Assembly (NCBI GenBank): GCA_900318115.1
Contig: ONJJ01000045.1
Span: forward strand, 1 to 40,020
DNA: 40,020 bases
Reading direction: 5' to 3'
Origin: an uncultured Prevotellaceae bacterium
GTDB taxonomy: Bacteria > Bacteroidota > Bacteroidia > Bacteroidales > Bacteroidaceae
In this document: one piece after another, positions 1 to 30,214 of the stretch
Layout of the letters: each line of letters starts with the position of its first letter
How positions within the stretch are numbered: the stretch's first letter is position 1
Made by a program: the position numbers and the translations under genes
Notes under the pieces: generated by a model
The model's database searches: none
What the model was told of the DNA's origin: nothing
The model's input: only the letters and a program-made list of their open reading frames with translations

Positions 1-195
1 GAGTCGCGAAAGCTCGCTTTCAGGCGCTCAACGAACGCTACTGCATCGAGGCACGTAGTGCCCACCTTTCCAACTGGTGTTTTTTATGTTTTTTTCTTCC
101 TCAACCTTTTATGTTTTTGTCTTTATCAATATTATGTTTTTTCTAACTCTATAACAGAAGCTATTCGTGACGAAAGGAAATTGGGGTCGGGGGGA
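1..195. other. Non-coding left edge downstream of the antiterminator gene
   Basis: No convincing reading frame continues leftward after the antiterminator stop codon within the window. The stretch holds three spaced copies of a TTATGTTTTT-like motif (around 84-95, 109-118 and 132-142, about 23-25 bp apart) in T-rich DNA, then GC-richer sequence at the very edge. If a polysaccharide operon follows, its first gene lies beyond the left edge. No clear terminator hairpin was found here, so readthrough from the antiterminator gene into whatever follows is possible. Confidence 0.5.
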
Positions 196-1507: not shown

Positions 1508-1535
1508 TTCATCCACTTCTATCCCATGAAAGGGA
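1508..1535 (+). repeat. Left inverted repeat of the invertible segment
   Basis: 28 bp. The perfect 19-bp core is 1517-1535, with an inner imperfect palindrome ATCCC-ATGAAA-GGGAT at 1521-1536. An extra half-site-like CATCC lies just outside the core. The predicted crossover spacer is ATGAAA at 1526-1531. Confidence 0.8.
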
Positions 1536-1741
1536 TGGAACTACTTCCGACAGTGTCCTGCGAAAACTACTGAACATCTCCAGTAATCTGGGGAGGGACA
1601 ATCCTTAGGAACATAGACTGACCAAATAGTACGATTGAAATCAGTTTATCACCACAACAAGGAAGATTAATCCTGTTACGTCTGCGCTTTTGTTAAAATC
1701 TGTTATGAATTATTTATTAGCTTCACTTTTCCTAACATTTT

Positions 1742-2794
1742 TCACGTGCATATCGCAATTTTTACGTACCTTTGCGGCCATAAAATGTCCCTTTCATGGG
1801 ATAGAAAGGGATGAAAAAAAGTACGGTCAATCAGGAACTTATTAGCTCCATGAATCTTATTATTTTCCAATGACTTAATGTATATCTGCGTGGTCAATTC
1901 CGAGTCATGTCCCAGTCCCTGACTGATGACGGAGATGGGCATGTCGAGTTCGTGCATGACGCTGGCCCACGAATGGCGTGCGACGTAGGAGGTGAGGCAG
2001 ACTTCCTCGCCCAGCATGGCAGAGAGCAGTTTCAGATAGTTGTTGTAGGTGCGGAGGGCTGTGCGATAGGCCCGGTAGGCCGCCTCCTCGTCCACGGTGC
2101 GGAGGATGGGAAAGAGGTACGGTATGCCCCGGGTCTGGGCGGCATAGCGCTCGATAATCTCCCGCATGATGGGTTCCAGGGCGACTTCTATCTGCTGACC
2201 GGTCTTGCGGCGACGATAGCAGATGATGCCCTGACGGACATCCTCCTTCTTCAAGTAGGCCAGGTCCACGAAGGCCATGCCGCGGGCGCAGTAGGAGAAG
2301 ATGAAGAGGTCGCGGGCGAAGGTCACGCGGCGAAGGAGTGAGGCGAAGGTGCGGCGACAGGGAGATTTGCCAATAGCGGCCAGCGCGTGAGGGATATCCA
2401 GCACCCGAAGCTGCTGGATGACAGAGATGCTGGTGGCGCGTTTGCGGGTCTTGGCGATGCCACGATAGACCTTGGCAAAGGGGTTCGCGGGCTGGATGGG
2501 AAGACCAGACGCAGCCTTGTTGAAGACGGACTGGAGCGAGCGGATGTAGCAGGAGGAGGAGTTCTTGACCACACTGGTGGTGCCGAGCCACTGCTGGTAG
2601 GCAAGGACGAGGGTTGCGGTGAGCTCACCCAAGGTGAGGTCTGCCCTACCCTGCGACCGGAGGAAGCGGACAAAGCTGTTGCGGGCACTCTCTATCCGGG
2701 AGGCCTGCCCAAATCTCTTGGCCTTACGGAGTGACTGGATCTCCTGACTTAGGCAGCAGAGGAAGGAGTGTTGAAGGATTTCTTGATTGTTCAT
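1742..2794 (-). CDS. Tyrosine recombinase, probable DNA invertase
   Basis: 350 residues with a SAM-like N-terminal domain (about 10-115) and a phage-integrase catalytic domain. Visible catalytic residues are Arg171 (YCARGMAF), Lys197 (RRRKTGQ), Arg273 in VARHSWAS, His296 in GLGHDSE, and Tyr305 in TTQIYIKSL. The first His of the HxxR motif appears replaced by Tyr270, which I believe is common in Bacteroidales recombinases of this type. Family knowledge: such enzymes act locally to invert promoter segments next to capsule loci. The conserved fold should end near ANKFLID (residue 323). The tail beyond it runs through the right inverted repeat, so the final 14 residues lie in the movable segment. 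It starts at ATG 2794, with a terminator 60 bp upstream separating it from the genes to the right. No consensus promoter for it was found. Confidence 0.9.
   Translation of the reverse strand: MNNQEILQHSFLCCLSQEIQSLRKAKRFGQASRIESARNSFVRFLRSQGRADLTLGELTATLVLAYQQWLGTTSVVKNSSSCYIRSLQSVFNKAASGLPIQPANPFAKVYRGIAKTRKRATSISVIQQLRVLDIPHALAAIGKSPCRRTFASLLRRVTFARDLFIFSYCARGMAFVDLAYLKKEDVRQGIICYRRRKTGQQIEVALEPIMREIIERYAAQTRGIPYLFPILRTVDEEAAYRAYRTALRTYNNYLKLLSAMLGEEVCLTSYVARHSWASVMHELDMPISVISQGLGHDSELTTQIYIKSLENNKIHGANKFLIDRTFFHPFLSHERDILWPQRYVKIAICT
1767..1774 (+). promoter_or_regulatory. Promoter -7 element inside the invertible segment, pointing right
   Basis: TACCTTTG fits TAnnTTTG exactly and is followed by CGG, as in other likely promoters of this window. 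The -33 box is poor: only a T-run at 1738-1742, about 24 bp upstream. In the present orientation it would transcribe toward the right, antisense to the recombinase. Inverted, it would occupy about 1549-1556 and read left into the antiterminator. Confidence 0.55.
1788..1815 (-). repeat. Right inverted repeat, inside the recombinase 3' end
   Basis: Partner of the repeat at 1508-1535. The perfect core is 1788-1806, followed by an outer GGGATG half-site-like arm. The core falls inside the recombinase reading frame and covers codons about 330-336 (FLSHERD), so the sequence to its left, including the stop codon, belongs to the movable segment. Confidence 0.8.
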
Positions 2795-6205: not shown

Positions 6206-6736
6206 TTAGTCCTTTTCTTCCTTATCTTCCTTTTCTTTCTTCTCATCGCCGGCCACGAGTTCACGCACCTTCTCGATGAGTTCTTCCTCGGCACCGTCGG
6301 TGTAGCCATTGTGCTTATAGACCACATTGCCTTCGCCATCGCAGATGACGACGTAGGGAATCAGTTCGCCGCCGAAGGTGCGACGCAGCTCGCTGTTGGG
6401 GTCGAGCAGGACGTCGTAGGTCCATCCGTGGTTGTCCACCAGGGGCTTCACCTTGTTGGTGTTCTGAGCGCGGTCGATGCTGACGGCAAAGAGCTTCACG
6501 CCAGTCTCTTCCTGCCATTCCTCATAGACCTCGGCAATGGCATCGAGCTCGCGGTTGCAGGGTTTGCACCAGGTGGCAAAGAAGTCGATGATAAAGGGTT
6601 TTCCGCCGTTGGAGAGTGTGTCCACGCGTACGGCTTTGCCGCTGATGTCCTTCAGGGTGATTTGCGGCAGCTTCTGGGCCAGTGCTTCGCCGGCCAGGGT
6701 CAGAAGAAGTGAGAGAGCAACAAAAAAGTGTTTCAT
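6206..6736 (-). CDS. TlpA-like periplasmic thioredoxin
   Basis: 176 residues: signal peptide to about residue 20 (TLAGEALAQ), then a TlpA/ResA-type thioredoxin fold. The redox motif WCKPC (Cys57, Cys60) follows FIIDFFAT. The cis-proline region is ELIPYVVICD. The C-terminal 20 residues are almost all Lys, Glu and Asp (EKKEKEDKEEKD), an unusual charged tail. As first gene of the operon with the beta-barrel and Omp28-like genes, it may keep cysteines of those envelope proteins in the right redox state; that is inference. A promoter at 6764-6771 precedes it. Confidence 0.9.
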   Translation of the reverse strand: MKHFFVALSLLLTLAGEALAQKLPQITLKDISGKAVRVDTLSNGGKPFIIDFFATWCKPCNRELDAIAEVYEEWQEETGVKLFAVSIDRAQNTNKVKPLVDNHGWTYDVLLDPNSELRRTFGGELIPYVVICDGEGNVVYKHNGYTDGAEEELIEKVRELVAGDEKKEKEDKEEKD

Positions 6737-6889: not shown

Positions 6890-8404
6890 CTATTTTAGTA
6901 TTGTATGAATATGCTGTTCACGGTGTGTGAGGTCCACGACTATTCCGTATTTGTCGTGCAGGTGTTCTGCCAGGTGCTGTGCACTGTACACTGAGCGGTG
7001 CTGTCCGCCGGTGCATCCGAAGGAAAACATGAGGTCCGTGAAGCCACGCTGGAGATAGCGTTCTACGTGGGCATCGGCCAGTCGATAGACCGAGTCGAGG
7101 AACGTCAGTATCTCCCCGTCCTCTTCCAGGAAGCGGATGACCGGTTCGTCCAAGCCCGTCAGTTGTTTGTACGGCTCATAGCGCCCGGGGTTGTGCGTGG
7201 AGCGGCAGTCAAAGACATATCCGCCGCCATTGCCGCTGGTGTCCTCGGGGATGCCACGTTTGTAGGAGAAGGAGAAGATGCGGACGGTGAGAGAAGACCC
7301 ACCCCCCAAACGAGTCCAGCCGGAACACTCAGACCCACCCCCCGCCCTCCCTGTGAGGGAGGGAGTTGATACCTGTGAAGGTTGTTTCTTTTCACTCTGG
7401 CTTATGTATTTTGCTGCCAATTTCTCCAGCACACCTCTCATATACTCATACGGGCATCCATCCTCTTCCTGCAGGAGGACGCGGAGGTTATCCAGGGCCG
7501 GGGGTATGCTGTCCAAGAAATGCTGCTTGCGCTCGAAGAAACCACGGTAGCCATAGGCACCCAGGACCTGCAGGAGGCGGAAGAGGACAAACAGACGCAG
7601 GCGCTGGCGGAAACGAGCCTCATCGACCTCCACGTAATGACGGAGGTTCTCCAGGTAAACGCCTATGAGTTCCTCGCGCAGCTCAGGACTATAGCGCGCC
7701 GAAGCCTGCCAGAGGAAACTGGCGAGGTCATACTGCACGGGGCCGCGGCGGCCACCTTGGAAATCAATGAAATGCGGATTGCCGGCGGCATCCAGCATCA
7801 CGTTGCGAGCCTGGAAGTCGCGGTAGAGAAAAGCCTGCTCATCCGATGCCACCAGGTCGCGGGCAAAGCGCTGGAACTCCCGCTCCAGACGCACCTCGTG
7901 GAAATCCACGCCCGAGGGCTTCAGGAAGGAGTACTTGAAGTAATTGAGGTCGAAATGAACGTTCATCTCATCCATCTCGGCCTGGGGATAGCAATGGGAA
8001 AAATCCAAACCTTCGGCACCCCGGATCTGCAATGCCGGCAGCATGGCGATGGTGCGGCGCAGCAATTCCCGCTCCTCTTCAGAGTAACGTCCTCCCGCAG
8101 CACGTCCACCGCTGAGGGCATCGAAGAGCGAGCGCGCCCCGAGGTCTTCCTGAAGATAGCGGAGACCATCGGAGGAGACTGCCAGCACCCGCGGTACGGG
8201 CAGGTCCTGACTACAGAAATGATCGGACAGATAACAGAAGGCATGGTTCTCCTCGAGCGAGGTGCCAATGACACCGATCACGCTCTTGCCGGCCGACGAC
8301 GTGAAGCGGACGTAGCGCCGGTTGCTACCAGAACCCGTGATGGGCTCCACCGTCTTTGGAGGAGCACCCATGAAAGTGGTATATAACGCAGTAAGTTCTT
8401 GCAC
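6890..8404 (-). CDS. Fusion of sugar-kinase-like phosphotransferase and RapZ C-terminal domain
   Basis: 504 residues. Residues 1-335 are an aminoglycoside-phosphotransferase-fold kinase related to AmgK-type cell-wall sugar kinases, with catalytic loop YRDFQARN (Asp196, Asn201) and metal-binding Asp214 in FIDFQGG. Residues 373-504 match the C-terminal domain of RapZ (FGCTGGQHRS at 462-471), which in enterobacteria senses glucosamine-6-phosphate and binds the small RNAs GlmY/GlmZ. The N-terminal NTPase half of RapZ is missing. The linker (about 345-371) is encoded by a GC-rich palindromic repeat. The start is GTG 8404. A role linking cell-wall amino-sugar recycling to signalling is plausible but inferred. 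The gene follows the ABC permease gene by 52 bp. Confidence 0.85.
   Translation of the reverse strand: MQELTALYTTFMGAPPKTVEPITGSGSNRRYVRFTSSAGKSVIGVIGTSLEENHAFCYLSDHFCSQDLPVPRVLAVSSDGLRYLQEDLGARSLFDALSGGRAAGGRYSEEERELLRRTIAMLPALQIRGAEGLDFSHCYPQAEMDEMNVHFDLNYFKYSFLKPSGVDFHEVRLEREFQRFARDLVASDEQAFLYRDFQARNVMLDAAGNPHFIDFQGGRRGPVQYDLASFLWQASARYSPELREELIGVYLENLRHYVEVDEARFRQRLRLFVLFRLLQVLGAYGYRGFFERKQHFLDSIPPALDNLRVLLQEEDGCPYEYMRGVLEKLAAKYISQSEKKQPSQVSTPSLTGRAGGGSECSGWTRLGGGSSLTVRIFSFSYKRGIPEDTSGNGGGYVFDCRSTHNPGRYEPYKQLTGLDEPVIRFLEEDGEILTFLDSVYRLADAHVERYLQRGFTDLMFSFGCTGGQHRSVYSAQHLAEHLHDKYGIVVDLTHREQHIHTILK
7295..7366 (-). repeat. GC-rich palindromic repeat inside the kinase-RapZ coding region
   Basis: ACCCACCCCCCGCCCTCCC, then TGTGA, then GGGAGGGAG (about 7333-7366), with a partial second copy ACCCACCCCCC at 7297-7308. 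It closely resembles intergenic copies at 31123-31147 and 31219-31243, and the copies in the PspC gene. It stays in frame and encodes the linker segment TPSLTGRAGGGSECSGWT. Confidence 0.75.
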
Positions 8405-16587: not shown

Positions 16588-16621
16588 TTTGCTCGCAGAT
16601 GCACAAAAATATGTATCTTTG
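16588..16621 (+). promoter_or_regulatory. Promoter of the second GH16 gene
   Basis: TTTG at 16588-16591 and TATCTTTG at 16614-16621 are spaced 22 bp, near the Bacteroidetes consensus. The start codon at 16662 leaves a leader of about 35 nt. Confidence 0.65.
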
Positions 16622-28285: not shown

Positions 28286-30214
28286 ATGCACACAAAAAGT
28301 GAACTTGAAGCCCTGACAGACGAACAGTTGGTCGTCCTTGCCAGATCACTAAACATTCCCGTAAAATCGGATACCGAGAAACTGGATCTCATCTATGCCA
28401 TCATTGGCGCCGAGAGCGAAAAAGTATCTGCCGAACCGGCGGAGAAGCCCAAGAAGCGCGGCCGCAAGTCCAAGGCAGAGAAGGAGGCCGAGGCCGCCGC
28501 ACAGGCAGCAAAAGAGTCTGCACCAGCAGACGCCCCGGAGGAGCAGGGGAAGGAAAAGGATGCTCAGAAAAAATCCAAGAAGAAGGCTGATGCGACTCCT
28601 GCAGAACAGCCCCAGGAGCCAGAGGCCAAGGACGAAAGCGCCGCCGAGGCAGCAGAAGCCCCTGCCGCCCCTGCCCCCAAGAAGCGCGGCCGCAAGTCCA
28701 AGGCCGAGAAGGAAGCCGAGGCCGCACGCGCAGCCCAGGCAAAGGAGGCTGAGCTCCCGCTCTTTGAGAACGAAGCACCGTCTGCTCCCAGCGAAGAGAC
28801 CCCGGCACCTGCCGACGAAGTAACACCTGCAGCCCCCGCCACCGAGCCACAACCGGCTCAGGCCGAGCCCACAGGCGAGATGGAGATGACGCCAGAGGCT
28901 GTGGACGCCTTCTTCAAGGCCAACGAACCCGACTTCATCATCGTCAAGCCCATCCCCGACTACCCCGGATTTATTCCCGAATACGACGCTCCGGAAACCC
29001 AGGTGCCCTCGTTCATCCAGAACCTCGCCACGGTGACACACGGCGGTCCGGCTCAGGAAACGCAGGCAGCCCAGCAGCCAGCCAGCCTCTATGACTTCGG
29101 CGACCTGGTGAAGTGCGAAGGCGTGCTGGAAACGACGCCCGAGGGGTTCGGTTTCCTGCGCAGTTCCGACTACAACTACCTGGCCAGCCCCGATGACGTG
29201 TACGTCAGTCAGCAGCAAATCAAGCAGTACGGACTGAAGACGGGCGACGTGGTGGAAGGCAGCGTGCGTCCTCCGCGCGAGGGCGAGAAGTACTTCCCCC
29301 TGATGAGCATCGACAGCGTGAATGGTGTGGATCCGGCCCGCATCCGCGACCGTCAGTCCTTTGAACACCTGACGCCGCTGTTCCCCGACGAGAAGTTCCA
29401 GCTCTGCCGCGGATACAACGACTCCACCAGTGTGCGTGTCGTCGATCTGTTTGCCCCCATCGGCAAAGGCCAGCGCGCCCTCATCGTGGCCCAGCCCAAG
29501 ACGGGTAAGACGCTGCTGATGAAGGATATCGCCAACGCCATCGCCGCCAACCACCCGGAGGCCTACCTGATGATGTTGCTCATTGACGAGCGCCCGGAGG
29601 AAGTGACGGATATGGCGCGCACCGTGAACGCCGAGGTCATCGCCTCGACCTTCGACGAGCCTGCCGAACGCCACGTGAAGATTGCCGGCATCGTGCTGGA
29701 GAAGGCTAAGCGCATGGTCGAGTGCGGCCACGACGTGGTCATCTTCCTGGATAGCATAACGCGTCTGGCCCGCGCCTACAACACCGTGGCTCCGGCCAGC
29801 GGCAAGATCCTCTCCGGCGGCGTGGACGCTCAGGCGTTGCACAAGCCCAAGCGTTTCTTCGGCGCCGCGCGCAACATCGAAGGCGGCGGTTCGCTGACCA
29901 TCATCGCCACAGCGCTCATCGACACCGGCAGCAAGATGGATGAAGTCATCTTCGAGGAGTTCAAGGGTACGGGCAACATGGAGCTGCAGCTGGACCGCAT
30001 GCTCTCGAACAAACGTATCTTCCCCGCCGTGAACATCATCGCCAGCTCCACTCGTCGCGACGACCTGCTGCATGACAAGACGACGCTGGACCGCATGTGG
30101 ATCCTCCGCAAGTTCCTCTCCGACATGACTCCGCTGGAGGCCATGACGGAACTGAAGAAACGACTGGAAGACACCAAGACCAACGAGGAGTTTCTCATTT
30201 CGATGAACTCATAG
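28286..30214 (+). CDS. rho: Transcription termination factor Rho with long disordered insertion
   Basis: 642 residues, far longer than the ~420 of E. coli Rho. The N-terminal SAP-like helices ([19 protein letters not shown]) are followed by a low-complexity segment (about 48-250) rich in Ala, Lys, Glu and Pro, with a repeated [15 protein letters not shown] at about residues 53 and 132. Then come the RNA-binding cold-shock-like domain ([20 protein letters not shown]) and the ATPase domain with Walker A AQPKTGKT and Walker [18 protein letters not shown]. It is a hexameric RNA helicase ending transcription. In Bacteroides thetaiotaomicron a comparable disordered region has been linked to phase separation of Rho. 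Confidence 0.97.

Follow-up and report, generated by a model that had tools for sequence, protein, structure and literature searches.

In the Bacteroidales, glycan loci have been described in which upxY is the first gene and an invertible promoter is served by a local invertase (PMC8748976), and the combination of invertible promoter, local invertase, and upxY is also the subject of three further sources (PMC13114119, PMC12118408, PMC11892184). In these accounts, repeats with internal palindromes lie beside tyrosine-type invertases and UpxY (PMC12118408), UpxY genes are enriched beside invertons, and some invertons intersect a gene and alter its protein (both PMC11892184). A different arrangement is described for Bacteroides fragilis, where an Mpi-type serine invertase controls several capsule promoters at a distance (PMC8375218, PMC12632263).

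Here we describe a locus near one end of a window of 40,020 bp, which is the whole stretch of DNA analyzed and an entire contig; the contig begins at window position 1. On its gene order and motifs, the locus is assigned to the known type made up of a local tyrosine invertase, an invertible promoter, and upxY. We consider it highly probable that the locus combines a phase-variable promoter and a dedicated invertase and switches a UpxY-like antiterminator.

Inverted repeats flank a segment with one promoter element

A repeat search, together with inspection of the bases, identified two inverted repeats of 28 nt, at 1508 to 1535 and 1788 to 1815, that match at 26 of 28 positions (93%) and are separated by 252 bp. 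Their score within the 600 bp from 1300 to 1899 was 22, against a best score of 12 and a mean of 3.5 in 300 single-base shuffles; the shuffles made by our script preserved base composition only, not dinucleotides. The repeats are real and far above chance, and the coordinates, match, and spacing given in the preliminary description were recovered exactly. The right repeat is a perfect 8-8-8 dyad, TCCCTTTC-TATCCCAT-GAAAGGGA, equaled in none of 100 shuffles of the right arm, and it also encodes residues 327 to 336 of the recombinase. The left repeat, a putative recombination site, is degenerate in its outer half, where both mismatches lie (CCACTTC for CCCTTTC); the spacer and inner halves are identical between the two sites. 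The arm-spacer-arm layout first proposed for both sites is thus a perfect dyad at one of the two, the right one, and is imperfect at the left.

The segment between the repeats, 1536 to 1787, is interpreted as invertible from the repeats themselves, from the pattern across the class of related loci, and from relatives in which it is inverted. It contains a single TAnnTTTG, TACCTTTG at 1767 to 1774 on the plus strand, corresponding to the -7 element of the Bacteroides promoter consensus (-33 TTTG, -7 TAnnTTTG) that was used for scoring. In the assembled orientation, this element points into the tyrosine recombinase gene and, as first described, away from the antiterminator. Computed inversion placed it at 1549 to 1556 on the minus strand, some 240 nt upstream of the antiterminator start codon (ATG at 1302), which bears out the position and leader length predicted earlier. 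The -33 box, already noted as weak, reaches at best two of four matches to TTTG at spacings of 18 to 22. The invertible promoter is here a consensus match, rather than a mapped transcription start.

The adjoining gene encodes a predicted tyrosine recombinase

The gene at 1742 to 2794 on the minus strand encodes a protein of 350 amino acids, P0002, with its last 14 residues inside the invertible segment. P0002 matches Pfam families PF00589 (7.9e-11) and PF13102, representing the SAM-like and catalytic domains of tyrosine recombinases. The catalytic residues of these enzymes are Arg, Lys, (His)xxArg, His, and Tyr. The P0002 ORF is intact and its catalytic residues are conserved: across 40 aligned relatives, selected out of 85 loci, K197, R273, H296, and Y305 were invariant and R171 was conserved at 90% or more. 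By domain and catalytic residues, P0002 is identified as a tyrosine recombinase. The first His of the HxxR motif is replaced by Tyr270 (window 1985 to 1987), which was likewise invariant across the 40 aligned relatives. P0002 is a single copy in the source genome, and the nearest named recombinase in a scan of named genomes, at 57%, was from a Prevotella MAG. With repeats that flank a consensus promoter and a recombinase that adjoins them, the locus is, as judged from these features, an invertible promoter with a local invertase.

Related loci share outward-pointing elements and include inverted pairs

Within the genus, 50 of 139 genomes, counting the source genome, have a P0002 relative at E of 1e-20 or better; the family scan gave 59 of 399 genomes (1e-60), and the scan of named genomes gave 30 loci. 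The loci taken from the genus and family scans were the best matches, at most 30 from each, and so represent the nearer relatives. Six near-duplicate loci and one locus with a fold-back contig end (L063) were removed before counting. There were 79 distinct loci, 65 of them with at least 500 nt beyond the recombinase. Repeat pairs reaching the set score were present at 42 loci, 41 of which are within the 65, and were absent from 24 of the 65, including L039/L109 (53 to 54% identity). At L009 and L038, the sequence ends too soon after the recombinase for repeats to be judged.

Among the 42 loci with repeats, 38 had a TAnnTTTG located 10 to 32 bp inside an arm and pointing outward, 31 toward the recombinase and 7 toward the next gene, and none had one pointing inward; 500 shuffles gave a mean of 1.3 of 42 and a maximum of 6 for outward elements. 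The four loci that lacked an edge element were L016, L022, L051, and L052, and at L016 the scoring had chosen a repeat other than its best one. The recombinase-side arms of the 42 loci had internal dyads averaging 5.5 bp, versus 3.3 bp in shuffles, and the dyad was at least 5 bp in 30 of them.

The ORF following the segment was UpxY-like at 28 of 39 loci, the 39 being the 42 minus L013, L022, and L113, for which the available sequence shows no ORF after the segment; at L040, L043, L047, L050, and L055, the first ORF was used for this count instead of a longer one. Other cargo included DUF3575 proteins, in three members. SNF2/phospholipase-D type proteins occurred in two members, taken to be L029 and L033 from their near-identical sequences. 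In these two, the inverton precedes a long ORF that is defense-like by its NCBIfam and Pfam names, and the promoter faces opposite ways in the two species. A locus from another genus of the same family, L108, encodes a recombinase 62% identical to P0002 with a long UpxY-like gene next to it, and has a 25-bp repeat inside the recombinase frame and a -7 element separated from the arm by 14 nt. The L108 repeat differs in sequence from that of the window, yet its two arms agree with each other, which implies that arm identity is maintained.

Two pairs of relatives aligned within the segment only when one member was reversed. For L029 and L033, the alignment z score was 7.7 reversed versus -1.1 forward, with flanks 84 and 81% identical, and for L064 and L127 it was 6.1 reversed versus 0.8 forward, with flanks 72 and 66% identical. 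These pairs were selected because, of all the pairs compared, they gained most from being reversed; the segments of four control pairs in like orientation aligned forward only. The contig ended no more than 350 bp past the recombinase at 13 of 60 loci and on the other side at none of the 60, where the nearest end was 1,431 bp away (a count that includes the window and predates the removal of duplicates). This clustering is consistent with assembly breaks at a flipping segment. The preliminary description had suggested comparing orientation across genomes, and the two inverted pairs were obtained in this way; the segment of the window itself was present in its own genome only, as a search with 1300 to 1850 against 61 genomes of the genus matched three, its own and two with short matches, and returned no inverted form. 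In the last 300 bp of L063, the contig folds back so that the segment has the 3' end of the recombinase on each side, possibly due to both orientations being present in one sample or assembly.

That an invertible promoter is worked by the adjoining recombinase and aimed at a UpxY-like gene, as had been proposed, is well supported by these relatives, through the outward edge elements at 38 of 42 loci and the two inverted pairs. Counting against it are the two left-site mismatches, the missing -33 half, a fixed promoter described below, and the 24 of 65 loci without a repeat. Some of these features would also be expected of a relic locked in one orientation, whose site or recombinase no longer works: the left-site mismatches, the weak -33 box, and the lack of an inverted form among the 61 genus genomes all fit. 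However, the P0002 ORF is intact with conserved catalytic residues, and the spacer and inner halves are identical in both sites, and we regard a relic as highly unlikely. P0002 carries general phage-integrase domains and could in principle be the integrase of an integrated mobile element to which the repeats belong. This we hold to be exceedingly unlikely, given that relatives have repeats in inverse orientation with a promoter element facing outward, that segments are inverted between relatives, and that none of ten other window ORFs scanned had a mobile-element domain.

A fixed promoter-like sequence faces the antiterminator

Outside the segment and abutting the left repeat is a second promoter-like sequence, TTTG-N21-TACATTTG, at 1475 to 1507 on the minus strand. 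It is one of four full-consensus matches in the window, versus 0.15 expected, and it fits the Bacteroides consensus better than the invertible promoter does. The second match is 28 nt before an ORF starting at 6736 (minus strand), the third is 132 nt before rho at 28286 (plus strand), and the fourth, at 16588 to 16621 (plus strand), is among overlapping ORFs. In the relatives, any TAnnTTTG between the segment and the next ORF was found at 6 of 39 loci (shuffle mean 2.1, maximum 7), and the full form was found in the window only, among seven loci inspected (the six with TAnnTTTG, window included, and L108). An exact TTTG at 18 to 22 nt accompanied 12 of 39 edge elements, versus 5% of random positions, and many kin of the invertible element likewise are without a -33 half.

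The assembled orientation had been called OFF-like, a label that is uncertain. Since the fixed promoter faces the antiterminator, this orientation may not be fully OFF and may still be transcribed. It is conceivable, though somewhat unlikely, that the antiterminator is expressed mainly from the fixed promoter, with inversion altering the level or the leader, in which case the locus would act as a dimmer and not as an on/off switch. The full-consensus match beside the left repeat, the two other matches that precede ORFs, and the invertible element without its -33 half are consistent with this. Against it, the full-form promoter is absent from the relatives inspected, and the fourth match, among overlapping ORFs, is hard to interpret.

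Other signals near the locus were slight. The leader fold was mildly stable (z score of -1.98, equally good in 7 of 200 shuffles), terminator-like sites occurred about as often as chance predicts (3 versus 2.7), and sigma-70-like sites nearly so (3 versus 1.6), with one of the latter, 1506 to 1477 on the minus strand, overlapping the fixed promoter. No Rfam match reached the gathering score within the window. Elsewhere in the window, the Rho protein of 642 amino acids (28286 to 30214) has its RNA-binding domain from residue 278 and hence a long N-terminal part, and an ORF at 6893 to 8404 combines an APH-type phosphotransferase domain with a RapZ C-terminal domain.

The recombinase frame enters its own segment

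The P0002 frame passes through the right repeat and, counting the stop codon, extends 46 nt into the segment. Computed inversion yielded a protein of 359 rather than 350 residues, in which 23 new residues replace the last 14. In the structure model, the exchanged tail lies beyond the last well-modeled helix (311 to 325), and pLDDT is below 50 at 333 to 336 and 340 to 350; it is also below 50 at 299 to 307, which includes the catalytic tyrosine. An F-to-L change in the computed inverted protein results from inverting whole arms and would be absent if exchange takes place in the spacer. The stop codon lies past the first arm at 6 of 42 loci (the window, L047, L050, L108, L113, and L132), at L132 by one base only. 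The case for a conserved function of the exchanged tail is weak, and we set it aside; the computed ON-state tails of the window and L108 are dissimilar. The last 13 codons of L009 and L108 differ by two synonymous changes, too few to support an argument.

It is unlikely, yet worth stating, that the switch rewrites its own recombinase, with inversion swapping the tail, the mRNA 3' end, and the presence of an antisense promoter. If the tail or an antisense RNA affected activity, the two orientations would flip at unequal rates and the element would bias its own memory. We found no description of a recombinase whose own frame enters its inverton in the open-access literature searched.

The antiterminator and its probable target

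The gene at 196 to 1302 on the minus strand encodes P0001, of 368 amino acids, with a KOW motif at residues 159 to 186 and a C-terminal extension. The KOW motif scored 22.4 bits against a cutoff of 22.3, and the NusG-type N-terminal domain, PF02357, was not reported for P0001 at E values up to 1. Against NCBIfam model NF033644, P0001 scored 45.8 bits over residues 85 to 190, below the cutoff of 100. For the preliminary assignment as a UpxY-like antiterminator, P0001 offers similarity to UpxY below the family cutoff and a KOW match barely above its own; it is best classed, from its sequence, as a long, divergent UpxY-like antiterminator. It is a single copy in the source genome. The next ORFs at L111, L114, and L115 (35, 32, and 31%) aligned closer to P0001 than that of L108 (26%).

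Four P0001 homologs, with 46 to 52% identity, precede polysaccharide genes. Ten proteins near them were scanned (seven at L095 and one each at L096, L097, and L098), and nine carried domains, among others those of polysaccharide export, chain-length/tyrosine-kinase, aminotransferase, sugar transferase, and glycosyltransferase proteins. No recombinase match was found near these four homologs. The homologs suggest that the target of the switch is probably an exopolysaccharide operon, which would lie off the contig; the surface polysaccharide proposed earlier is thereby supported, through homologs only. Two Poly_export genes occur elsewhere in the genome, and the ORFs listed for both neighborhoods gave no tie to the switch locus. 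Window positions 23 to 132 are repeated, at 94%, at the start of another contig of the same genome (C37), which gives no join.

Relatives of P0001 were present in 21 of 139 genomes of the genus at 1e-5. Among their loci, the combination of recombinase, repeat, and edge element was found, besides the window, only at L080/L099, which are one locus. An inverton upstream of a P0001-type regulator is thus uncommon among these genomes of the source genus.

Proposed mechanism and comparison with known systems

In the mechanism that we propose, P0002 would bind both repeats and carry out strand exchange within the spacer TATCCCAT, which is asymmetric and identical in both, inverting the 252 bp. As assembled, the promoter element is aimed back at the recombinase gene; once inverted, it would drive the antiterminator from an mRNA whose leader measures about 240 nt. 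By antitermination, this protein would then allow transcription to continue through its own operon, which probably serves an exopolysaccharide and would lie off the contig. The fixed promoter at 1475 to 1507 may supply a basal level in either orientation.

The fimS element of Escherichia coli is a promoter segment flipped by the site-specific recombinases FimB and FimE, which are coded nearby. The fimS segment is 314 bp (PMC5763102), and it thus resembles the window in the length of its promoter-bearing segment and in having recombinases coded nearby; it differs in coming from another lineage and in operating without an antiterminator. The Mpi system and the window both combine invertible promoters with antiterminators, those of Mpi being capsule promoters. 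However, Mpi, as described, is a serine recombinase acting globally, whereas the window has a tyrosine recombinase adjoining its own sites.

The closest likeness is to the Bacteroidales loci with a local invertase and upxY, as those sources present them: the recombinase is upstream, repeats surround a TAnnTTTG-type promoter, and a UpxY-type gene comes next, and the repeats with internal palindromes described in PMC12118408 are shared as well. Unlike those loci as described, the window has a longer and more divergent antiterminator, a right site lying within the reading frame of the recombinase, a fixed promoter by the left site, and an operon outside the contig. As in the gene-intersecting invertons of PMC11892184, inversion is predicted to change the end of a protein, and in the window that protein would be the recombinase itself. 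The locus would add a well-documented case to the phase-variable surface-glycan switches, and it suggests that an invertase gene can contain one of its own recombination sites, through which the orientation could influence further flipping.
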